A stretch of 64,000 nucleotides of DNA from Capnocytophaga sputigena (GTDB taxonomy: Bacteria > Bacteroidota > Bacteroidia > Flavobacteriales > Flavobacteriaceae): contig NZ_UAVP01000007.1 of assembly GCF_900446695.1 (NCBI RefSeq), forward strand, positions 310,001 to 374,000, given 5' to 3'. The notes below the pieces were generated by a model. It was not told where the DNA came from. It was given only the letters and a program-made list of their open reading frames with translations, and did not search any database. Position numbers and translations under genes: made by a program. This document shows, piece by piece, positions 34,585-45,488 of this stretch. Every line of letters begins with the position of its first letter. Position 1 is the stretch's first letter.

Positions 34585-36159
34585 ATGAATGAATCTGAAA
34601 ATATAATAGTTCCTGAAATTACACCTCAATACCAGCGTTTTACTCAGCAACAGACGAGTATTGAACGCGGTAAACTCCCACCGCAAAACCTCAATGCCGA
34701 AGAAGTAGTACTCGGCGCTATGCTCATTGATAAACGCGGTGTTGACAATGCTATCGATATGCTTAGCCCTGATGTGTTCTACAAAAAACAACATCAATTA
34801 ATTTATCAAGCTATCTTTGAACTTTTCAACCAGTCGTTACCTATCGACCTTATCACGGTTTCTGAACAATTGCGCAAAGATGGCAACTTAGAAGCTGCAG
34901 GAGGAGAACTCTATCTTATCAACCTCACTCAGCGCGTATCGTCGTCTGCCAATGTGGAGTTCCACTCCCAATTGATTTTGCAGACGTTTATCAAACGCCG
35001 ATTGATAGAACTTTCGTCTGAAATTATAGAAGATGCTTACGATGAAACTACCGATACTTTTGTGCTGCTCGACCAAGCGGAACAAAAACTCTATGAGGTT
35101 ACCCAAAACAACCTAAAACGCTCTACTGAAACAGCAGGTGATTTGGTGTATAAAGCGGTAAAGAAAATCGAAGAATTGTCTAATAAAACAGATGGATTTA
35201 GTGGAGTGCCATCAGGCTTTACAAAATTAGATGAACTCACTTCGGGGTGGCAAGCGAGTGACCTTATTATTGTGGCAGCGCGCCCTGGTATGGGGAAAAC
35301 AGCCCTCACGCTCTCTATGGCACGCAATATTGCTGTAGGGCAAAAAATACCGGTGGCTTTCTTCTCTTTGGAAATGTCGTCAGTACAGCTTATTACTCGT
35401 TTAATCTCCTCAGAAACAGGACTTTCCTCCGAAAAACTTCGTACTGGTAAACTGGAAGCTTACGAATGGGATGTGCTCAACAACCGCGTGAAAGACCTCG
35501 AAAAAGCACCACTTTTTATAGATGATACGCCTTCTATTTCTATTTTCGACCTTCGAGCTAAAGCACGCCGACTTTCCTCACAGTATGGCATTCAGCTAAT
35601 TGTAATTGATTATTTGCAGCTGATGACTGCCGGAGGTAGCAAAGGAGCTGGTAATCGTGAGCAGGAAATTTCTACCATTTCGCGTAACCTTAAGGCACTT
35701 GCCAAAGAGCTCAATATACCGGTAATTGCACTTTCTCAATTGTCGCGTAACGTAGAGGCACGCCCTGGTCACAAACGTCCTCAACTATCCGATTTGCGTG
35801 AATCAGGAGCGATTGAGCAAGATGCTGATATTGTATCGTTTATTTATCGTCCTGAGTATTACAAAATAATGGAGTGGGACGACGAAGCTCAAACGCCTAC
35901 GGCCGGACAAGCCGAATTTATCGTAGCAAAACACCGTAATGGGGGCTTAGACAATATACGTTTGAAGTTTGAAGGACATTTAGGTAGATTTGCAAATTTA
36001 GATGAATATAGCAGTGGAGGTTTCTTATCGGCAGTACCTCAAGAGTTTACTTCTAAAATGAACCAAAATGTAGCTTTTGATGCCGTGCCAATGGCAAATC
36101 CTGCTCAGGCTTTTGGTGCTCCTTCCACCACCTCACCCGAGGGCGATATACCTTACTAA
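34585..36159 (+). CDS. dnaB: replicative DNA helicase
   Basis: Hexameric helicase that unwinds the parental duplex ahead of the replication fork. It is 524 aa from ATG 34585. The N-terminal primase-interaction domain starts PPQNLNAEEVVLGAMLID. The RecA-like domain has Walker A ARPGMGKTAL, VAFFSLEMSS, Walker B LIVIDYLQLM and the tail motif PVIALSQLSRNVEAR, then DLRESGAIEQDADIV. The frame can be read five codons further to a TTG, but this lies in the promoter-like motif. Its end overlaps the convergent neighbour by 4 nt. Confidence 0.97.
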   Translation: MNESENIIVPEITPQYQRFTQQQTSIERGKLPPQNLNAEEVVLGAMLIDKRGVDNAIDMLSPDVFYKKQHQLIYQAIFELFNQSLPIDLITVSEQLRKDGNLEAAGGELYLINLTQRVSSSANVEFHSQLILQTFIKRRLIELSSEIIEDAYDETTDTFVLLDQAEQKLYEVTQNNLKRSTETAGDLVYKAVKKIEELSNKTDGFSGVPSGFTKLDELTSGWQASDLIIVAARPGMGKTALTLSMARNIAVGQKIPVAFFSLEMSSVQLITRLISSETGLSSEKLRTGKLEAYEWDVLNNRVKDLEKAPLFIDDTPSISIFDLRAKARRLSSQYGIQLIVIDYLQLMTAGGSKGAGNREQEISTISRNLKALAKELNIPVIALSQLSRNVEARPGHKRPQLSDLRESGAIEQDADIVSFIYRPEYYKIMEWDDEAQTPTAGQAEFIVAKHRNGGLDNIRLKFEGHLGRFANLDEYSSGGFLSAVPQEFTSKMNQNVAFDAVPMANPAQAFGAPSTTSPEGDIPY

Positions 36160-37844
36160 AAATACTCTTGGAGCGTGTGAATATCCAAGAAACCTTTTTT
36201 GCCATTCTTCTCTATTGCATAAAATGATGTTGAGAGAGGAATGGCTTTGTCATATTGGGTTGAGGTTTGCAGGTAGAATCCTATCTTGCCGTCCTTGTAT
36301 AAGTAGATCACATCGTTTTCTTTCTGCTCAATTTTATCGAATACAAAAGGCAATAACTGTTTGCCTTTCATATATTTTATAACAGTAGGGAGCATCCCAA
36401 GTATAAAGACGGAGCTTCCTTCTTTGTCTTTAAAAAAGAAATTGTTGTAGAGATTTTGTATTTCTTCATCTGTATAGTTTGTAGCTTTTGAATAATCGTA
36501 GTAAAAAAGACCTACTTTTCCCTTGCGTTTTACACTGACTAAGTGCGGGAATAAACGCGTTCTTTGCTCTTCTTTTTTATCCCAACTTAAGTAGCTTCTC
36601 TCGTAATAGTCTCTTGCATTTATAAAAGCGATTTCCTCTTCAGCATTGCGGTCTATGAGGCGGTATCTCTCGTCAGCTACTTCACTGTCACTTATCAGAG
36701 GAGTATCTTTAAAATCTATATAATGAGTAATGTTTTTCTCAATCGTATCTTTATTGAGGCGATACACTTCCTCGCGAAAACTGAGCCCACAATAACCTCT
36801 ATAAGCTTTTGGTAATTTTGCAACTTTCTGTCCATCCATATCGTATAGTTCTACTCCTTTTTCAGTAAGAGCTTCTATACCTATGTTGTATAAATACGCT
36901 ACTTTTACCCCTTTGAATTTGATAGGTTGATGCTGGTAATTATAAAACTCTAAAGAATTTTTATTCTTGCCAATGACTCCGTATTCATTGTAGTAAATGG
37001 TGTCATAGGATTTAGGTAACACTTTGTGGTTAAAGCGATTTACCAACTCATATTGTTTTCCTTGGGGTCGAAGTGTTAAAAACTCATTTACATTCCAATA
37101 GTTTATCCATTTGGTATAACGCATCTCTATAGGAGGCAGTTCTTCCATTTTGCTAATGTTTTCTTGCCAACTATAGCGATCTAATGCTGCAATTGTATTT
37201 TTTTCTTTTGGAGGAAAATAAATTTTTGAGATATAAGGAATGTTATCTCTGCCTTTTAAGTCGGAGAGTAAGAAAAGGTATCTTCCTTTACCTGCATCTA
37301 AAACGAAATAAGCATAATATTGAAATTCGTAAGATTCCCATCGCGGTAGTGTGTCTTTAACAATATGAGACCACCCCTCCTTGTCTTCAAGGATAAGTCT
37401 CTCACCCTTATATGCTTTGGTTTCAAATTCTAATTTTCTTTCGCTGGCTACCGAAGAATTGAGCAAACTAAAGCAATGTGTCTTCTGCTTTTTTAGCATC
37501 ACAGTAGGGTTACCAAAGTTTTTGCCAATCATTTCATCAAGTATAGTAGGTCGCACATCTTTCATTTCAATAAAAGCGTCTTTTCGCAAGTGTAAATCAT
37601 TGTAGCTAAGTTCTTTGTCATCCATTTTCCAATAAGGAGTATAGGCATAGAAAGTACTATCGGGCAAGGATTCCCTGCGAAAGTTGAGTAGCATAGCCAC
37701 ATAGCTACCGTTCTTCTTTTGATGATAAAAATGAAATTCTTTATCGATAACTGCTATGAGCGAAATTTCTTTAGAAGGAAGAATAAATTGCGCTTGTAAG
37801 GGCAATATCCCACACAAAACGCATAAAATTAGTGCTTTCATCAT
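36156..37844 (-). CDS. secreted WG-repeat-like protein of unknown function
   Basis: A 562-aa protein with a signal peptide (MMKALILCVLCGILPLQA, cut near QAQ). The body has widely spaced WG-like units of the form (K-G-K-V/I-G-F/L) seen in VKRKGKVGLFYYD, YKDGKIGFYL and IEKNGKKGFLDI, plus EYGVIGKNKNSLEFY. WG-repeat proteins are common in this phylum and lack a known biochemical role. Both ATG codons at 37844 and 37841 are possible starts. The neighbour on the other strand starts 50 nt away, divergently. Confidence 0.75.
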   Translation of the reverse strand: MMKALILCVLCGILPLQAQFILPSKEISLIAVIDKEFHFYHQKKNGSYVAMLLNFRRESLPDSTFYAYTPYWKMDDKELSYNDLHLRKDAFIEMKDVRPTILDEMIGKNFGNPTVMLKKQKTHCFSLLNSSVASERKLEFETKAYKGERLILEDKEGWSHIVKDTLPRWESYEFQYYAYFVLDAGKGRYLFLLSDLKGRDNIPYISKIYFPPKEKNTIAALDRYSWQENISKMEELPPIEMRYTKWINYWNVNEFLTLRPQGKQYELVNRFNHKVLPKSYDTIYYNEYGVIGKNKNSLEFYNYQHQPIKFKGVKVAYLYNIGIEALTEKGVELYDMDGQKVAKLPKAYRGYCGLSFREEVYRLNKDTIEKNITHYIDFKDTPLISDSEVADERYRLIDRNAEEEIAFINARDYYERSYLSWDKKEEQRTRLFPHLVSVKRKGKVGLFYYDYSKATNYTDEEIQNLYNNFFFKDKEGSSVFILGMLPTVIKYMKGKQLLPFVFDKIEQKENDVIYLYKDGKIGFYLQTSTQYDKAIPLSTSFYAIEKNGKKGFLDIHTLQEYF

Positions 37845-39460: not shown

Positions 39461-39928
39461 TTAATCTTCCAAACTAAATTTGATAGGGCATCGAAAACGC
39501 ACCGCTATTGGCTTACCACGTTGGAGAGCGGGAATGAAACAAGGTAAACTTTCAATTAGGAATTTAGCTTCTGCTTTGAGGTCTTTATCAGTGCCAATAA
39601 CTTCAAGTACTTTTACGGTACCATTTTTCCTGATAGCAAACTCTACTACCACCTTCTCTTGTATTCCTTTCCTTAAAGCTCTTTTAGGATAGCGAAGATG
39701 AGTGATAATATGTTCGTTGAGATGTTGCTTGAAACAATGTTCTTGTTCGTTTTTATCTACATCCTTACAAGCCTCAAACATAGGTTTTTGCTCTATAATA
39801 GCAAAAGGAATGTCGTATATACCTTCATCTTCATCTTCTTGTGTATAGCTATTGGCTGTGATAGAATTAGAGCTTTTACAAGCTATTATCAGTACTGCCA
39901 TTACAAATAAAAGTGCAATTTTTTTCAT
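39461..39928 (-). CDS. TonB C-terminal-domain lipoprotein (mini-TonB A)
   Basis: A 155-aa protein made of a lipoprotein signal (LIIACKSS), a short acidic linker and a TonB C-terminal domain. The conserved Cys pair lies in FEACKDV and HCFKQHL; the domain core is YPKRALRKGIQEKVVVEF and ends GKPIAVRFRCPIKFSL. It has no membrane anchor that would contact ExbB/ExbD. It has its own promoter and stands 100 nt apart from the five-gene run upstream. Lipid anchoring sets it apart from the other mini-TonBs. Confidence 0.85.
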   Translation of the reverse strand: MKKIALLFVMAVLIIACKSSNSITANSYTQEDEDEGIYDIPFAIIEQKPMFEACKDVDKNEQEHCFKQHLNEHIITHLRYPKRALRKGIQEKVVVEFAIRKNGTVKVLEVIGTDKDLKAEAKFLIESLPCFIPALQRGKPIAVRFRCPIKFSLED

Positions 39929-39947
39929 AAATATAAATTTAAAGAAG

Positions 39948-39955
39948 CAAAGATA
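39948..39955 (-). promoter_or_regulatory. -7 promoter element of mini-TonB A
   Basis: Reads TATCTTTG on the minus strand, 20 nt before the start at 39928. Confidence 0.6.
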
Positions 39956-40029
39956 GGAATGATTGGCTAATTAGCAATTACCAAATTAGTTAATTCTATT
40001 GACGATGTGTTTCTTGTAGCTGTCTTTTA

Positions 40030-40572
40030 TTATTGAATGACAAAATTAATAGGGTAAGCAAAAGTTGCTGTTATGGGCTTTCCTTTTATTTTTCCTACAG
40101 TAAAATGGGGTAATGCTTCAATAATGCGTTTGGCTTCGCGCTTCAAACTTTCATCTTTACCGCGTGTAGCGAGCACTGTTACAGAGCCATTAGTATTGAT
40201 ACAGAATTGTACAATAACCCTTCCTTGTGTCATTTCACAAGCAGTCTCTTGAGGTACAATCTTACGTATATATGTATTTACGTGTTTGTCTAACTGCTTT
40301 TTAAAGCACTCCAATTGTTGTACCTCTGGAATATCTTCACACTCCTTAAATCGCGGTTTTTCCTCTACCCAATGATAAGGAATCGTGTCATTTTCTTCTA
40401 TTTCAGTAGGAGCACTATAATAAGTATTATCATTGTATTTAGGTAAAGTACACGTTTGTATATCTACCTTCAATATTGGTAGTGGAGTAGCCTTGTTCTT
40501 TTTCTTTTGTCCATAACTATTACCTATTTCCATCAGTAAAAGTACTAAAAATATAAAGATACTATTTCGCAT
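40030..40572 (-). CDS. secreted TonB C-terminal-domain protein (mini-TonB B)
   Basis: A 180-aa protein from ATG 40572: signal peptide MRNSIFIFLVLLLMEIG (cut after SYGQ), a basic then mixed 50-residue linker, and a TonB C-terminal domain with the Cys pair FKECEDI / ECFKKQL and the core GRVIVQFCINTNGSV. The frame extends 32 codons upstream, but this would overlap mini-TonB C and lacks a signal sequence. It is the last gene of a five-gene run. Confidence 0.82.
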   Translation of the reverse strand: MRNSIFIFLVLLLMEIGNSYGQKKKNKATPLPILKVDIQTCTLPKYNDNTYYSAPTEIEENDTIPYHWVEEKPRFKECEDIPEVQQLECFKKQLDKHVNTYIRKIVPQETACEMTQGRVIVQFCINTNGSVTVLATRGKDESLKREAKRIIEALPHFTVGKIKGKPITATFAYPINFVIQ

Positions 40573-40586
40573 AATATAAAAAATCG

Positions 40587-41042
40587 TTAGTGTTGAACTA
40601 TAAACTTCACAGGATAACCAAAAGTTACAGCTACGGGTTTTCCATTTTGTTGACCAGGAATAAGACACGGTAAACTTTCGATAATGCGTTTAGCTTCTTC
40701 TTCAAATACTTTAGGTAATCCAAAACTATTTACTCTCAATACTTTTGAAAAACCATCAGTACCTATACAAAAACTTACAAGCACTCTACCTTGCCCGCAA
40801 AATTCTATAGGGTAGCACAAATGTGTTGCGATATGTTTGTCAAGCTGTTGTTTAAAACAAAGAAGTTGTTCATTGTTAGCTAAGTTTTCGCATTCTTTAA
40901 ATATTGGCTTTTTTTCTACTATCCCATAAGGAATCGTATCAAGATTTGATACATCTGAAGCTATTGGTTCTCCACAACGTGCTTGTGAGTAACTTGTTAA
41001 AGTTACAAAAAAGAATATTATAAAGGTAATTATTGCTTTCAT
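40587..41042 (-). CDS. secreted TonB C-terminal-domain protein (mini-TonB C)
   Basis: A 151-aa protein with a signal peptide (MKAIITFIIFFFVTLTSYSQ) and a TonB C-terminal domain: IFKECENL / LCFKQQL Cys pair, GQGRVLVSFCIGTDG core, ending GKPVAVTFGYPVKFIV. It has additional Cys residues (ARCGEP, LCYPIEFCG). It lies 15 nt after the previous gene of the run. Confidence 0.84.
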   Translation of the reverse strand: MKAIITFIIFFFVTLTSYSQARCGEPIASDVSNLDTIPYGIVEKKPIFKECENLANNEQLLCFKQQLDKHIATHLCYPIEFCGQGRVLVSFCIGTDGFSKVLRVNSFGLPKVFEEEAKRIIESLPCLIPGQQNGKPVAVTFGYPVKFIVQH

Positions 41043-41057
41043 TAGTATCTTTAGTTT

Positions 41058-41477
41058 TTAAAATAGCTCAAATCGTATAGGCCACAGCATTTTTACTACT
41101 ACAGGTTTCCCATTCTGTTTGGCAGGAATAAAAGGCGGAAGACTTTCAATAATAGATTGTGCGACAACTTCCCAATCTTTATCTGTACTTTTCATTTGAA
41201 GGACTTTAGTTGTGCCATCGGGATTGATACAGAAACTCACATTCACCCTTCCTTGAATAAAGCCGCAAGTCCCTTGAGAGGTGATGCTTTTGATATATTC
41301 CCTTATAATTTTATCCATCTGTTCTTTGAAACACTGGATTTCTTGAGTTTTAGCTACCTCTTTACATTCTGCGAATCTCGGTTTTTCCTCTACATTAGCA
41401 TAGAAAAGGGTATCAGTTTGCGAATAGCTGTTGTAGTAAGTAATTGCAAATAAAAGTATTAGTAATAACTTTTTCAT
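41058..41477 (-). CDS. secreted TonB C-terminal-domain protein (mini-TonB D)
   Basis: The shortest of the set, 139 aa. The signal peptide ends NSYSQ and is followed almost directly by the TonB C-terminal domain, with virtually no linker (TDTLFYANVEEKPRF). Cys pair FAECKEV / QCFKEQM; core QGRVNVSFCINPDGTT; ends NGKPVVVKMLWPIRFELF. Spacing to its neighbours is 8 and 15 nt. Confidence 0.84.
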   Translation of the reverse strand: MKKLLLILLFAITYYNSYSQTDTLFYANVEEKPRFAECKEVAKTQEIQCFKEQMDKIIREYIKSITSQGTCGFIQGRVNVSFCINPDGTTKVLQMKSTDKDWEVVAQSIIESLPPFIPAKQNGKPVVVKMLWPIRFELF

Positions 41478-41485
41478 ATTTGTTA

Positions 41486-41932
41486 TTAATCGTTTGTTAG
41501 TTTGAAATTGATAGGACAGCTAAATTTTACAGCTATAGGTTTGCCGCGCTTTTTACCAGGGATAAGTCGGGGTAAACTCTCAATAACAGATCTTGCTGCT
41601 GCTTTGAGCTCCTTGTCAGTACCTGTTATTTTGAGAATTTTGACAGTTCCATTAATTTGGACTGTAAAATCTACTACTACTCTGTCTTGTATTCCTTCTT
41701 CTAATGCTTTTTTGGGGTAGCAGAAATGCGTTTTGATATGTTTTTCTAATTGTTCTTCAAAGCATTGAAATTGTTTATCCCATCCTAAGTCTTTACAATC
41801 CACAAATAAAGGTTTTTGTTCATAAATTAAACAAAGCACACTATAATTTGTTTCTTCATCATTATCTTGCTGGGCATAACTATTCGCTATGACAGCAAAA
41901 CACAATAAGAATACAAAAGTTTTAGCTTTCAT
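41486..41932 (-). CDS. secreted TonB C-terminal-domain protein (mini-TonB E)
   Basis: A 148-aa protein with a signal peptide ending NSYAQ and a TonB C-terminal domain: LFVDCKDL / QCFEEQL, RVVVDFTVQINGTVKIL, KKRGKPIAVKFSCPINFKL. It starts one nucleotide after the end of mini-TonB F, consistent with translational coupling. Confidence 0.84.
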   Translation of the reverse strand: MKAKTFVFLLCFAVIANSYAQQDNDEETNYSVLCLIYEQKPLFVDCKDLGWDKQFQCFEEQLEKHIKTHFCYPKKALEEGIQDRVVVDFTVQINGTVKILKITGTDKELKAAARSVIESLPRLIPGKKRGKPIAVKFSCPINFKLTND

Positions 41933-41933
41933 T

Positions 41934-42395
41934 TTAGTTACTCAATTTGAAATTGATAGGATAATTAAAGGTTACTGGCACAGGTTTTCCGCCTTGTTTG
42001 CCTGGAATAAAAGTAGGTAGTTTTTCAAAAATCTCTTTGGCAGCAACTTCTAAGAGTTTGCTAATTCCACGAACATCCCTAATGGTTACAGAGCCATTAG
42101 AGTTAATTTGAAAACTTACATTTACCCTGCCTTGTATACCTTTGTCAAGCGCTTCTTTAGGGTAATAGAAATACCTAATTATGTGTTTGTTGAGCTGTTC
42201 TTTAAAACACTCTGTTTCTTTTTCTTTGGGAACATCTTCACAAGCCATAAATTTAGGTTTTTCTTCTACTAATAGAAAAGGAATAGGGTCTTCTTTTTCT
42301 TGCACTCCTTTAGCATTAAAATGGCGACTTACTATTTGTGCATAGCTATAACCTACAAAAAGAAATGTAAATAGTATGAATATCTTTGTTTTCAT
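41934..42395 (-). CDS. secreted TonB C-terminal-domain protein (mini-TonB F)
   Basis: A 153-aa protein, first gene of the five-gene run behind the second full tonB. Signal peptide MKTKIFILFTFLFVGYSYAQ; Cys pair FMACEDV / ECFKEQL; core KGIQGRVNVSFQINSNG; ends GKPVPVTFNYPINFKL. No promoter motif is seen in the 80-nt spacer, only the hairpin at 42421-42463, so expression probably depends on read-through. Confidence 0.85.
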   Translation of the reverse strand: MKTKIFILFTFLFVGYSYAQIVSRHFNAKGVQEKEDPIPFLLVEEKPKFMACEDVPKEKETECFKEQLNKHIIRYFYYPKEALDKGIQGRVNVSFQINSNGSVTIRDVRGISKLLEVAAKEIFEKLPTFIPGKQGGKPVPVTFNYPINFKLSN

Positions 42396-42420
42396 TGGGT
42401 TTAAAATTGTTTATAAAAAT

Positions 42421-42463
42421 AGTCGTTAGTAATTGGTTGTTAAACAACACAATACTAACGACT
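42421..42463 (-). terminator. strong hairpin between tonB 2 and its mini-TonB run
   Basis: AGTCGTTAGT pairs with ACTAACGACT, with further inner pairing (GTTGTT / AACAAC). On the minus strand T residues follow. It is placed directly after the full tonB. Confidence 0.75.
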
Positions 42464-42475
42464 AAGGTTTAAAAA

Positions 42476-43198
42476 TTAATGACTTAATTTGAAATTGATA
42501 GGATAAGCAAAAGTTACAGCAGTAGGTTTGTCGCGCTGTTTGCCAGGAATCAGTTTAGGAATAGAACTGATGATGCGTTTTGCTTCGTCCTCTAATATTC
42601 TATCGGTACCACGCACACCCAAAATACTGATAGAGCCATCGGTATTGATGCGGAAACTCACATTCACACGTCCTTCAATGCCCATATCAAGAGCAGCTTG
42701 TGGATATCTGAAGTTGTTTTTCACGTGTTTGTCTAAGTGTTCTTTAAAACAACTCATTTGCTCACTTCTAGGTACATTTTTACATTCTTGGAAAAGAGGT
42801 TTGTCTTCAATTACTGCAAAAGGTACTACTATTTCTGGATTTTCATCTTCTACCACTGGGATACTTTCAGGTGGCGCAGGGGGAGTAGGATCACTAGGGT
42901 CAGTACTCCCGATAGGCACTTCATCCACAGGATCGGTACCGTGAACTACTTCTATTTCCTGAACAAGCTGTGGTGGAGGGGCTTGTTGAGGCATTTCGGG
43001 GGTAGGCAATTCGATGATAGGGTCTGGTTCTTCACAAACTACTATTTTATCATCTATATAATAATTCGGGTTGCCTTCATTATAAGTTTTTGCCTCAAAT
43101 CCCCATAAGGTAAACCCAGAGATAGCGGCAAAACCAATTGCAAAGAACAACCCACTTTGTTTAGCCAAATCGGCTTTAGGGTTCTTTTTGAGTTGCAT
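42476..43198 (-). CDS. energy transducer TonB (second copy)
   Basis: Complete TonB, 240 aa: cytoplasmic MQLKKNPKADLAKQSG, one membrane anchor (about residues 14-33, LFFAIGFAAISGFTLWGF), a Pro/Glu-rich periplasmic linker (residues 55-125, PTPEMPQQAPPPQLVQEI), and the C-terminal domain with Cys pair FQECKNV / SCFKEHL and core GIEGRVNVSFRINTDGS, ending TAVTFAYPINFKL. It couples the proton gradient to outer-membrane receptors. Its N-terminus and even its upstream sequence (ttgcataatgatttttcttt) nearly match those of the other tonB, showing duplication. Confidence 0.93.
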   Translation of the reverse strand: MQLKKNPKADLAKQSGLFFAIGFAAISGFTLWGFEAKTYNEGNPNYYIDDKIVVCEEPDPIIELPTPEMPQQAPPPQLVQEIEVVHGTDPVDEVPIGSTDPSDPTPPAPPESIPVVEDENPEIVVPFAVIEDKPLFQECKNVPRSEQMSCFKEHLDKHVKNNFRYPQAALDMGIEGRVNVSFRINTDGSISILGVRGTDRILEDEAKRIISSIPKLIPGKQRDKPTAVTFAYPINFKLSH

Positions 43199-43318
43199 AA
43201 TGATTTTTCTTTAAAAGGTTATTAAAATACTATCAACAAAGGTTTAAAAAGCTTTCTAACTGTTTGTTATAAGCTGTAATTCAACAAGTGTGCCAAAGTA
43301 TAAGAGGGTTAAAAATTA

Positions 43319-43753
43319 CTAACCGTGAAGGTCAAAGTTGATAGGATAATTTAGTGTTATTTCTACTGGTTTCCCATCTTTATCTTTGGCAGGAATAAGT
43401 ATAGGGAGACTCTCAATAATACGTTTACCTTCATTTTCTAGAAGTTTATGAGGACCTTTAATACTTATAACACTAATACTCCCATCAGTGCGGATACAAA
43501 AAGTTATGTAAACCCTACCTGTTATATGTTCCTTTATAGCTTCTTCAGGATATTCAAAAATTTTTCCTACATGCCTATCTAAGTTTTTTATAAAACAAAT
43601 ATATTGTTCTTTTTTTGACATTTTATCATTTTCACATTCTTTAAATTGGGGAAATGTTACTACTTCAGTAGTTTTTTCTTTTTTATCCTCTGTTTGTGCA
43701 TAGCTAAAACCTACAAAAAGTAGTGTTAAGAGTATAAGTATATATTTTTTCAT
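43319..43753 (-). CDS. secreted TonB C-terminal-domain protein (mini-TonB H)
   Basis: A 144-aa protein. The signal peptide MKKYILILLTLLFVGFSYAQ is almost the same as that of its neighbour mini-TonB I, so the two are recent duplicates. The linker is Lys/Glu-rich. The Cys pair is spaced two residues wider than in the others (FKECENDK ... ICFIKNL). Core ITGRVYITFCIRTDGS; ends GKPVEITLNYPINFDL. Last gene of a three-gene run. Confidence 0.84.
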   Translation of the reverse strand: MKKYILILLTLLFVGFSYAQTEDKKEKTTEVVTFPQFKECENDKMSKKEQYICFIKNLDRHVGKIFEYPEEAIKEHITGRVYITFCIRTDGSISVISIKGPHKLLENEGKRIIESLPILIPAKDKDGKPVEITLNYPINFDLHG

Positions 43754-43793
43754 TTCAAAAAGATTTGAAAGTTATTATCTAATCAGTTGATAA

Positions 43794-44219
43794 CTATAAT
43801 TTAAAAAAAATAGGGTAAGCAATAGTTACAGTTATAGGTTTCCCGTTTTGTTTGGCAGGAATAAGTTTAGGCATACTTTCGATAATGCGTTTAGCCTCTT
43901 GTTCTAAAAGTTTATCAACACCTCTTAGTCCTATAACTTCTGTACTGCCATCTTTTTTAATGCGAAAAGATACATTTACTCTTCCTTCTATCCCAACCTC
44001 TTTAGCATCAGTAGGATATTTTAGTGTGTTTTCTATGTGTTTGTTCAGTACTTCTTGAAAACATTTGAAAGTTTCACCTTCAGGAACATCTTTACATTCC
44101 TGAAATCTTGGTTTTTGTTCTACTCTGGAGTAGGGTATATCAGTTTCTTCTTCTTTGTTTTGTGCGTAGCTAAAACCTACAAAAAGTAGTGTTAAGAGTA
44201 TAAGTGTATATTTTTTCAT
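43794..44219 (-). CDS. secreted TonB C-terminal-domain protein (mini-TonB I)
   Basis: A 141-aa protein with a signal peptide ending GFSYAQ and almost no linker before IPYSRVEQKPRF. Cys pair FQECKDV / KCFQEVL; core GIEGRVNVSFRIKKDGS; ends GKPITVTIAYPIFFKL. It starts 13 nt after mini-TonB J. Confidence 0.84.
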   Translation of the reverse strand: MKKYTLILLTLLFVGFSYAQNKEEETDIPYSRVEQKPRFQECKDVPEGETFKCFQEVLNKHIENTLKYPTDAKEVGIEGRVNVSFRIKKDGSTEVIGLRGVDKLLEQEAKRIIESMPKLIPAKQNGKPITVTIAYPIFFKL

Positions 44220-44232
44220 TTTTTGGAGAATT

Positions 44233-44658
44233 TTAAAAGTTATTGCCTAATAAGTAATTAATAGGGTAAGCAAACATTATAGGGGTAGGAATTCCGTTTT
44301 CTTCAGCAGGAATCAATTGTGGAAGTTTTTCAATAAGACGTCTTGCGTTTTCCTCGAAGATTTTATCGGTTGCACTAACATTAATGATTTCAACTTTCCC
44401 TTGGGCATTGATACAAAAAGAAACGATAGCTTTCCCTTGTAGTCCTTTTTCTTTAGCTTTTTTAGGGTAGATAAAATGTCTTTTCACGAATTTGTTTAAT
44501 TCTGTTTTAAAGCACAACGCTGCCTCTTCTTCAGTTGCATTTTTACATTTGTCGAATTTAGGGTAACGACTGATAAGATTACCGTCAGGGTCTTTTAATT
44601 GAGCATAGCTAACAATAGTGAAGAACATAGCTAAAAGTGTAAAGATTAGATTTTTCAT
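44233..44658 (-). CDS. secreted TonB C-terminal-domain protein (mini-TonB J)
   Basis: A 141-aa protein, first gene behind tonB 1 and its hairpin. Signal peptide MKNLIFTLLAMFFTIVSYAQ; Cys pair FDKCKNA / LCFKTEL; core GLQGKAIVSFCINAQG; ends IPTPIMFAYPINYLL. No promoter motif is seen in the 98-nt spacer upstream. Confidence 0.84.
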   Translation of the reverse strand: MKNLIFTLLAMFFTIVSYAQLKDPDGNLISRYPKFDKCKNATEEEAALCFKTELNKFVKRHFIYPKKAKEKGLQGKAIVSFCINAQGKVEIINVSATDKIFEENARRLIEKLPQLIPAEENGIPTPIMFAYPINYLLGNNF

Positions 44659-44704
44659 AATGATATGAATGGTGATAGGGGTTGATAAAAGTTGTGTAAT
44701 TAAA

Positions 44705-44739
44705 AAAGTCAGTAGTAAGGAGTCCTCACTACTGACTTT
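44705..44739 (-). terminator. strong hairpin between tonB 1 and its mini-TonB run
   Basis: AAAGTCAGTAGT pairs perfectly with ACTACTGACTTT, with an inner AGGA/TCCT pairing; on the minus strand a T-run follows. Confidence 0.85.
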
Positions 44740-44756
44740 ATATTTTGTTAATTTAA

Positions 44757-45488
44757 TTAGTTAGAAAGTGTAAAGTTGATAGGGTAAGCGAACGTTACAG
44801 GGGTAGGTTTACCACGTTGTTTACCAGGAATCAATTTAGGTATAGACTTGATGATGCGTTTAGCTTCTTCTTCAAGTAATTTATCAGTACCACGAACACC
44901 AAGAATAGATACAGTACCATCAGTATTGATACGGAAACTCACATTCACACGTCCTTGGATACCCATTTCAAGAGCAGCTGGTGGATATTTGAAGGTGTTT
45001 TTCACGTGTTTGTCCAAGTTCTCTTTGAAGCATTGCATTTGTTTGTCTTTAGGAACGTTTTTGCAAACTTCAAACATTGGTTTATCTTCAATTACAGCAA
45101 AAGGCACATCAATAGCAACTTCTTCTTCTTGAGGAGTTTCAATTTTTTGTACAGCTACTACTTCTTCTTTTTTGCTGGTTTCGGTACTAGCGAGAATTTC
45201 TTCTTTAATATCAGTTTTGTTATCTACCACTTTCACATCTTCTACAACAGCAGGAGCTGGTGGTGGTGGCGGTGGCGGTGGAGTGTCGGGGTGCTCCATT
45301 ACGAATTGTTCCTGTTCTTCGTCGAGGTTTTTGTCGGCATCGGATAAGGTGACTTTATCTGGCCCTTTGTCTTCGCGAGTGTACTCAAAAGCGAAAAGAG
45401 ATAGTCCAGAAACAAGAGCAAATCCTATTGCAAAGAACAATCCACTGCTTTTAGCCAAGTCGGCTTTTGGATTTTTTTTAGGTTGCAT
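44757..45488 (-). CDS. energy transducer TonB (first copy)
   Basis: Complete TonB, 243 aa: MQPKKNPKADLAKSSG, one membrane anchor (about 14-33), a linker with PDTPPPPPPPPAPAVVED (residues 67-84) and acidic stretches, and the C-terminal domain with Cys pair FEVCKNV / QCFKENL and core GIQGRVNVSFRINTDG, ending GKPTPVTFAYPINFTL. It lies 43 nt behind vanZ-like and gcvH genes with no promoter between, so it is probably in the gcvH operon. Confidence 0.94.
   Translation of the reverse strand: MQPKKNPKADLAKSSGLFFAIGFALVSGLSLFAFEYTREDKGPDKVTLSDADKNLDEEQEQFVMEHPDTPPPPPPPPAPAVVEDVKVVDNKTDIKEEILASTETSKKEEVVAVQKIETPQEEEVAIDVPFAVIEDKPMFEVCKNVPKDKQMQCFKENLDKHVKNTFKYPPAALEMGIQGRVNVSFRINTDGTVSILGVRGTDKLLEEEAKRIIKSIPKLIPGKQRGKPTPVTFAYPINFTLSN

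Follow-up and report, generated by a model that had tools for sequence, protein, structure and literature searches.

Anchorless tandem TonB C-terminal domain genes of Capnocytophaga sputigena as candidate periplasmic partners of TonB-dependent transporters

The best described relatives of the genes considered here are the C-terminal domains (CTDs) of TonB proteins (Pfam TonB_C, PF03544), for which structures are available from H. pylori (5lw8, 6sly) and from P. aeruginosa TonB bound to FoxA (6i97). Artificial periplasmic fragments of E. coli TonB also place a free CTD in the periplasm, although they are laboratory constructs and not natural genes; in a 2001 study by Howard et al., such fragments are said to have inhibited transport by FhuA and FecA. 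Here, we analyze a locus in a 64-kb stretch of Capnocytophaga sputigena DNA (64,000 nucleotides, hereafter the window), where eleven tandem open reading frames (ORFs) on the minus strand at positions 39461-45488, all of them intact, each end in a TonB CTD. The members of this array share with TonB the domain itself, its predicted fold and its edge strand, and nine of the eleven carry the YP motif of the domain; however, nine members lack the transmembrane (TM) anchor and linker of TonB and have a signal peptide or a lipobox instead, and m6, m7 and m8 (listed below) have extra cysteines. We refer to the nine anchorless proteins as minis. The array is a known domain in an unusual anchorless, expanded form, accompanied by a testable clue from gene pairing. 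By analogy with that pairing, which was found in another genus, we tentatively propose that the minis are periplasmic TonB-box-binding partners of TonB-dependent transporters (TBDTs) that compete with anchored TonB or replace it at the receptor, a reading that we consider possible rather than probable.

In the order of transcription, the array consists of TonB-A, m1 to m3, TonB-B, m4 to m8 and a lipoprotein mini. The genes and the signals between them are as follows (bit scores are for TonB_C):

44757-45488, minus strand: TonB-A, 243 aa, with N-terminal TM anchor, Pro-rich linker and TonB_C (PF03544, 58.8 bits)
44705-44739, minus strand: terminator-like hairpin 3' of TonB-A, a 16-pair stem followed by a T run
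44233-44658, minus strand: mini m1, 141 aa, signal peptide VSYA|Q, 52.0 bits
43794-44219, minus strand: mini m2, 141 aa, signal peptide FSYA|Q, 55.7 bits
43319-43753, minus strand: mini m3, 144 aa, signal peptide FSYA|Q, 42.6 bits, C-x12-C
42476-43198, minus strand: TonB-B, 240 aa, with TM anchor and Pro-rich linker, 54.9 bits
42420-42464, minus strand: hairpin and T run 3' of TonB-B, read from the intergenic sequence
41934-42395, minus strand: mini m4, 153 aa, signal peptide YSYA|Q, 61.0 bits
41486-41932, minus strand: mini m5, 148 aa, signal peptide NSYA|Q, 56.9 bits
41058-41477, minus strand: mini m6, 139 aa, signal peptide NSYS|Q, 35.7 bits, without YP, two extra Cys
40587-41042, minus strand: mini m7, 151 aa, signal peptide TSYS|Q, 26.2 bits (the most divergent), seven Cys
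40030-40572, minus strand: mini m8, 180 aa, signal peptide NSYG|Q, 38.5 bits, without YP, three extra Cys
39948-39977, minus strand: promoter-like site TTG-N19-TANNTTTG, just upstream of the lipoprotein gene
39461-39928, minus strand: lipoprotein mini, 155 aa, lipobox LIIA|C followed by KSSN, 52.6 bits

Pfam TonB_C exceeded its gathering score (24.6 bits) in all ten array proteins that were scanned, with scores from 26.2 bits (m7) to 61.0 bits (m4), and the eleventh, the lipoprotein mini, reached 52.6 bits in the genome search. The cut-off of the NCBIfam model TIGR01352 was reached by seven of the ten proteins scanned with it; m3 (43319), m6 (41058) and m7 (40587) scored below it, and m8 (40030) was outside that scan set. 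Alignment of the array has twelve invariant columns, which include a pair of cysteines and the phenylalanine that follows it. The spacing of the pair is C-x10-C in ten members and C-x12-C in m3 (43319), and m6, m7 and m8 have further cysteines beyond it. The pair of m5, which a pattern count in the window missed because extra cysteines overlap it, is present in the alignment. A preliminary description, made from the DNA alone, had claimed eleven tandem genes sharing one C-terminal pattern; the genes, their domain, and the Cys pair and CF in all eleven bear this out, whereas the YP element of that pattern is missing from m6 (41058) and m8 (40030). YP is reported to be a contact of the TonB box, and three TonBs of R. 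anatipestifer are reported without it (PMC4446302). The TonB box is described as pairing with beta-3, the final strand of the TonB CTD (PMC11658791), and this edge strand is kept in the array members.

A TM anchor and a Pro-rich linker can be read from the sequence only in TonB-A (44757) and TonB-B (42476). In place of the TM anchor for contact with ExbB/ExbD, the nine minis have a site resembling that of signal peptidase I (SPI) or a lipobox. All eight predicted signal peptides end in SY(A/S/G)|Q, i.e., with Gln at position +1, and thus fit the Q-rule reported for Bacteroidetes signal peptides, by which Gln is expected at this position (PMC5837995). In the same eight proteins, 18-56 residues separate the predicted mature N-terminus from the first cysteine of the pair, and there is no Pro-rich linker. 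The mature N-terminus of the lipoprotein mini, C-K-S-S-N, is without the K-(D/E)2 of C-X-K-(D/E)2, reported as the surface-export signal of C. canimorsus lipoproteins (PMC5080379), and because of this the protein is predicted to face the periplasm. It retains NSYTQ 3' of the lipobox, resembling the SPI site of m5, its sister in a tree of CTDs (support 99/95), and this element looks like a relic of an SPI site. With anchor and linker absent, eight minis should be free in the periplasm and the ninth lipid-anchored, as the preliminary description had proposed on finding two anchored genes, eight signal peptides and one lipoprotein, a count that stands. Its suggestion that the Cys pair tunes dimerization is weakened, since every one of the 43 anchored TonB rows examined, duplicates among them, has the pair as well. 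Because anchored TonBs carry it too, the pair is probably structural, and an intradomain disulfide is likelier than a dimerization device specific to minis.

Predicted structures were obtained for a typical mini, m4, and for the most divergent one, m7. The AlphaFold2 model of m4, built with the eleven sequences of the window as input, has a mean predicted local distance difference test score (pLDDT) of 84, and of ~95 over the domain. Foldseek returned two PDB matches for it at E 0.001 or better, both TonB; it superposes on the H. pylori TonB CTD with Z 9.7 (2.1 A over 91 residues) and on the FoxA-bound P. aeruginosa TonB CTD (6i97_D) with Z 9.6 (2.0 A over 88 residues). The m7 model (pLDDT 82) matches the same TonBs, 5lw8 with Z 8.6 and 6i97_D with Z 8.5. 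Rows for TolA domain III (1lr0) scored Z 7.5 (m4) and 7.3 (m7), below the best TonB rows and above some others. Both minis are thus predicted to have the TonB CTD fold.

The clue to a partner comes from g121, another genus of Flavobacteriaceae. In one of its genomes, G225, exported TonB_C genes lie ~50 and ~30 bases upstream of genes that Plug and CarboxypepD_reg domains identify as TBDTs, and 3 of the 19 TonB_C ORFs of this genome are followed by a Plug match on the same strand within 600 bases (0.06 expected, P 3e-5). A search of 58 g121 genomes with one exported protein of G225 returned 30 loci, one per genome. Fourteen of these hold the exported type, which we term 'LNSITKC'; a TBDT gene is directly downstream in 13, and the fourteenth locus is cut by the contig end. 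None of the 16 other TonB_C loci (anchored TonBs, M56-like fusions and other frames) had a downstream TBDT by the same queries, a control that shares the bias of this search, which relied on the N-termini of four TBDTs, two of them from g121. The C...CF element is present in all 14 CTDs of the exported type. In three longer stretches, chosen for the presence of genes of the exported type, each of the seven TBDTs has an exported TonB_C gene of its own ahead of it (one Pfam-confirmed), and one exported two-domain TonB_C gene precedes a Plug-bearing receptor, which is followed by a SusD gene. The LNSITKC type (e.g., in G225, G473 and G457) resembles the minis in being anchorless and exported-looking, in having C...CF and single or double CTDs, and in forming tandem runs; unlike the minis, it has an extra N-terminal region of ~100 residues, and many of its genes are paired with TBDT genes. 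In six further g121 stretches (L195-L200), two to four exported-looking TonB_C ORFs stand in tandem, some of them two-domain, with no TBDT in the stretch fetched.

A receptor-side role for the minis is suggested because a free CTD, though able to pair with a TonB box, has no means of pulling on it, and because the exported TonB_C genes of g121 directly precede TBDT genes. We infer by analogy that the Capnocytophaga minis would bind TBDTs through pairing of beta strands and would exert gating or competition rather than energy transfer. They would act at the inner face of the outer membrane, each offering an edge strand that pairs with the TonB box without pulling on it. Minis may cap or hold the TonB boxes of idle receptors; alternatively, they may compete with TonB-A and TonB-B for a shared receptor pool, which would bias which of the 42 transporters with a Plug match are driven.

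The C. sputigena genome (3.05 Mb) has 13 Pfam TonB_C matches, of which eleven are those of the array. The other two are a 147-residue exported protein on contig C9 and a match below the cut-off in a 545-residue frame on contig C4. A search with a profile of the array found one more exported mini on C4, overlooked by Pfam TonB_C; it is a 149-residue, exported-looking protein (G000:C4:200854-201291; L208 3352-3849, minus strand) with E 3.7e-25. The only anchored TonBs found in the genome are TonB-A and TonB-B, both within the array, and Pfam detected two MotA_ExbB, three ExbD and 42 Plug matches. Within the window, the TBDT queries detected two TBDT-like ORFs, 7 and 26 kb from the array.

The nearest array is that of C. 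periodontitidis (genome G011, locus L047), where six of the nine minis have a clear orthologue. Ratios of nonsynonymous to synonymous substitution rates (dN/dS) between the two, calculated by the Nei-Gojobori method and given without a significance test, were 0.03 for TonB-A and 0.27 for TonB-B; among the minis, they were 0.13 (m1), 0.29 (m4), 0.04 (m6), 0.35 (m7), 0.09 for the lipoprotein mini, on four substitutions, and 0.56 for m8, on six. Five other nearby genes gave 0.02-0.37. Since five of the six comparable minis fall between 0.04 and 0.35, most of them appear to be kept by selection. At the place of m2 and m3, C. periodontitidis has a single gene (L047 7301-7902) with an m2-like start and an m3-like end, its frame broken in the signal peptide, and a paralogue with 41% identity stands in place of m5. 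Thus, tandem copies are being born, fused and lost. Synonymous divergence (dS) is 0.13-0.51 in most genes of this comparison but falls to 0.02-0.03 in m8 and the lipoprotein gene (39461-40572 versus L047 10524-11639), a drop that suggests recombination or transfer at this end of the array in the recent past. Beyond the array, on the minus strand at 36156-37844, the window encodes a 562-residue protein without a Pfam match, whose orthologue is retained in C. periodontitidis (dN/dS 0.25).

The genes m4 to m8 are separated by gaps of only 1-15 bases, which suggests that they form one transcript. For m8, the ATG at 40572 (180 aa) is a likelier start than that of the GTG ORF 40030-40668 (212 aa), because the extension to 40668 overlaps m7. 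The hairpin 3' of TonB-B, terminator-like as well, was not among the matches of the hairpin scan, for which its loop is too long. The promoter-like site upstream of the lipoprotein gene has the form that we take to be the Bacteroidota promoter consensus; with 24 such sites over both strands of the window, it is weak evidence for a promoter of that gene. A sigma-70 scan of the array gave 10 sites compared with 25.5 in shuffled sequences, i.e., fewer, and was uninformative on promoters.

The main tonB locus was examined in 18 Capnocytophaga genomes, namely that of the window and 17 others. The order gcvH, vanZ-like gene, tonB, in which TonB-A takes the last place, is found in 14 of the 18, and it recurs in loci of other genera, e.g., Robertkochia, Zhouia and Galbibacter. 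The full array is present in two of the 18 genomes. Beside tonB, G008 has a second TonB and one short TonB_C gene with an unclear start, G009 has one extra TonB_C gene, and G014 has three minis and an exported-looking protein with two TonB_C domains, encoded directly after tonB (L050 9958-10731). Further exported minis occur at other loci in Capnocytophaga genomes. Away from tonB, G005 and G006 encode proteins with three TonB_C domains by the array profile. In several Capnocytophaga species (L054, L063, L067, L070 and L059), an exported mini in one or two copies lies beside a cysD-like gene, which in L054 has a PAPS_reduct domain by Pfam; this mini is anchorless and exported-looking like those of the array, and unlike them it lacks the Cys pair. 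At L070 (G010), an OMP_b-brl_3 barrel gene lies 784 bases upstream of the mini on the same strand. Two drafts, G015 and G018 (88-89% complete), have no Pfam TonB_C match, although their Plug matches number 43 and 51; searched with the array profile, G015 yielded a single weak match (E 2.2e-4) and G018 none. Divergent TonB, missing TonB and assembly gaps are candidate causes.

Elsewhere in the family, the building block of the array recurs. Sixteen loci from 16 other genera, chosen for short frames among the matches listed, all encode a TonB_C protein with an exported-looking start. These Flavobacteriaceae single-domain proteins (~144 aa, WPGC...CF) resemble the minis in their signal-peptide-like start, single TonB_C domain, Cys pair and absence of an anchor; however, they and the cysD-linked mini of Capnocytophaga come in one or two copies, with no large array beside tonB. 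In L103, L105 and L109, all three looked at closely, the exported TonB_C gene follows thymidylate synthase. At the same three loci, it precedes an egtB-like gene with an FGE-sulfatase domain (assigned by Pfam for L105), and L105 has a pair. In L072, TonB_C is fused to an M56 membrane protein.

The genome of the window has the most TonB_C matches (13; next 9) in a sample of 120 genomes of the family that did not include its richest genus. In a sample of 296 genomes of the phylum, with at most 18 candidates scored per genome, six genomes exceed this count, and full searches of these give 23, 20, 18, 18, 17 and 14 matches. G154 has five short TonB_C ORFs with eight domains (L118 6024-9189), three with a signal-peptide-like start; G172 has three consecutive TonB_C ORFs (L119 5745-7129), all with a hydrophobic N-terminal stretch, either a signal or an anchor, and this run lies near genes that are chemotaxis-like by eye. 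The statement in the preliminary description that no system of this form was known is therefore not supported: at least 16 other genera of the family have exported TonB_C proteins, and there are further tandem runs. Our literature search, limited to titles and the openings of abstracts and covering few subscription journals, found no account of anchorless TonB_C arrays or of their pairing with TBDTs. As for the count of arrays in relatives that the description had called for, the full array beside tonB is confined to two of the 18 Capnocytophaga genomes, while its parts are widespread: the exported TonB_C block is ordinary, and a large array behind tonB is rare. The CTD tree (133 rows, seventeen loci having been left out as duplicates or distant taxa) is firm for orthologue pairs and not for deep order (bootstrap unsettled, 42 open forks), and its anchored and exported labels come from a rough sequence pattern.

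Several observations weigh against minis as partners of TBDTs. The gating or occupation of receptors, raised in the preliminary description, gains indirect support from the related exported type directly upstream of TBDT genes in g121; on the other hand, the four-query search found no array mini that adjoins a TBDT gene, and no TBDT directly beside minis at the other Capnocytophaga loci fetched. This search is known to miss receptors, for example the OMP_b-brl_3 barrel (by Pfam) 784 bases from the G010 mini, which is the nearest other Capnocytophaga case. Across the 18 Capnocytophaga genomes, TonB_C and Plug counts are uncorrelated (Spearman 0.23, p 0.37, with G015 and G018, the two genomes without a TonB_C match, left out). 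The pairing itself is known from one genus, where the loci are not independent and G225 was chosen for having the most copies, and many exported TonB_C genes of g121 are not beside a TBDT in the stretches fetched. Moreover, the TBDT-paired proteins carry the extra ~100 N-terminal residues and do not group with the minis of the window with tree support. Among the minis themselves, m6 and m8 lack YP, the contact motif for the TonB box, and minis can be lost, as shown by the one broken and the one replaced in C. periodontitidis.

Other explanations fit parts of these data. The domain may have been reused, with the minis acting on a target other than TBDTs, such as peptidoglycan, a TolA-like outer-membrane system or envelope sensing. 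We regard this as unlikely: the fold matches include TolA domain III (1lr0, Z 7.5 and 7.3), other anchorless copies are found in unrelated surroundings (a PAPS_reduct gene in the genus, thymidylate synthase in the family), and TonB_C is also fused to an M56 protein (L072), but the best TolA row ranks under the best TonB rows and the gene context in g121 points to TBDTs. The same context counts against minis as adaptors that pair with the CTD of TonB-A or TonB-B, in domain-swapped or side-by-side dimers, and alter the choice of receptor. Minis and TonBs do have the CTD in common, the minis are encoded between and after the TonBs, and several exported proteins in Capnocytophaga and g121 have two CTDs per chain; yet the partner gene in g121 is a TBDT and not tonB, and none of our analyses, in which the models are single chains, indicated CTD-CTD contact; we think this role decidedly unlikely.

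The turnover of the array raises another explanation, namely that the minis are mostly by-products of tandem duplication, either a gene-conversion reservoir for the CTDs of the two TonBs or copies drifting to loss. The hybrid, broken and replaced copies of C. periodontitidis, the similar signal peptides of m2 and m3, the 16 of 18 Capnocytophaga genomes without the full array, and the dN/dS of m8 (0.56, on six substitutions) are in line with it. It is nevertheless improbable given the low dN/dS of m1 (0.13), m6 (0.04), m4 (0.29) and the lipoprotein mini (0.09), the eleven intact frames, and the export signals retained in all nine minis. Finally, each mini has a single N-terminal hydrophobic stretch, which might serve as an uncleaved signal peptide and make the minis short anchored TonBs in touch with ExbB/ExbD. 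We consider this very improbable: all eight stretches end in SY(A/S/G)|Q, as the reported Q-rule expects (PMC5837995), the minis have no Pro-rich linker to cross the periplasm, and the anchors of TonB-A and TonB-B are very different in sequence from these stretches.

If the minis are indeed TonB-box-binding partners of TBDTs, a more general and more doubtful proposal would be that the TonB system of Bacteroidota has a second half on the receptor side. This half would consist of periplasmic CTDs, free or tethered by lipid, some one-to-one with transporters, as in g121, and others pooled and fast-changing behind tonB, as in Capnocytophaga; by occupying TonB boxes, they would control which receptors are driven by the few anchored TonBs. 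The question of how a few TonBs are allotted to dozens of transporters is acute in the transporter-rich Bacteroidota; in this genome, 42 Plug matches face two anchored TonBs. Natural exported TonB CTDs without an anchor are a candidate means of allocating TonB, and the gene pairing in g121 supplies defined pairs of protein and receptor on which this idea can be tested directly.

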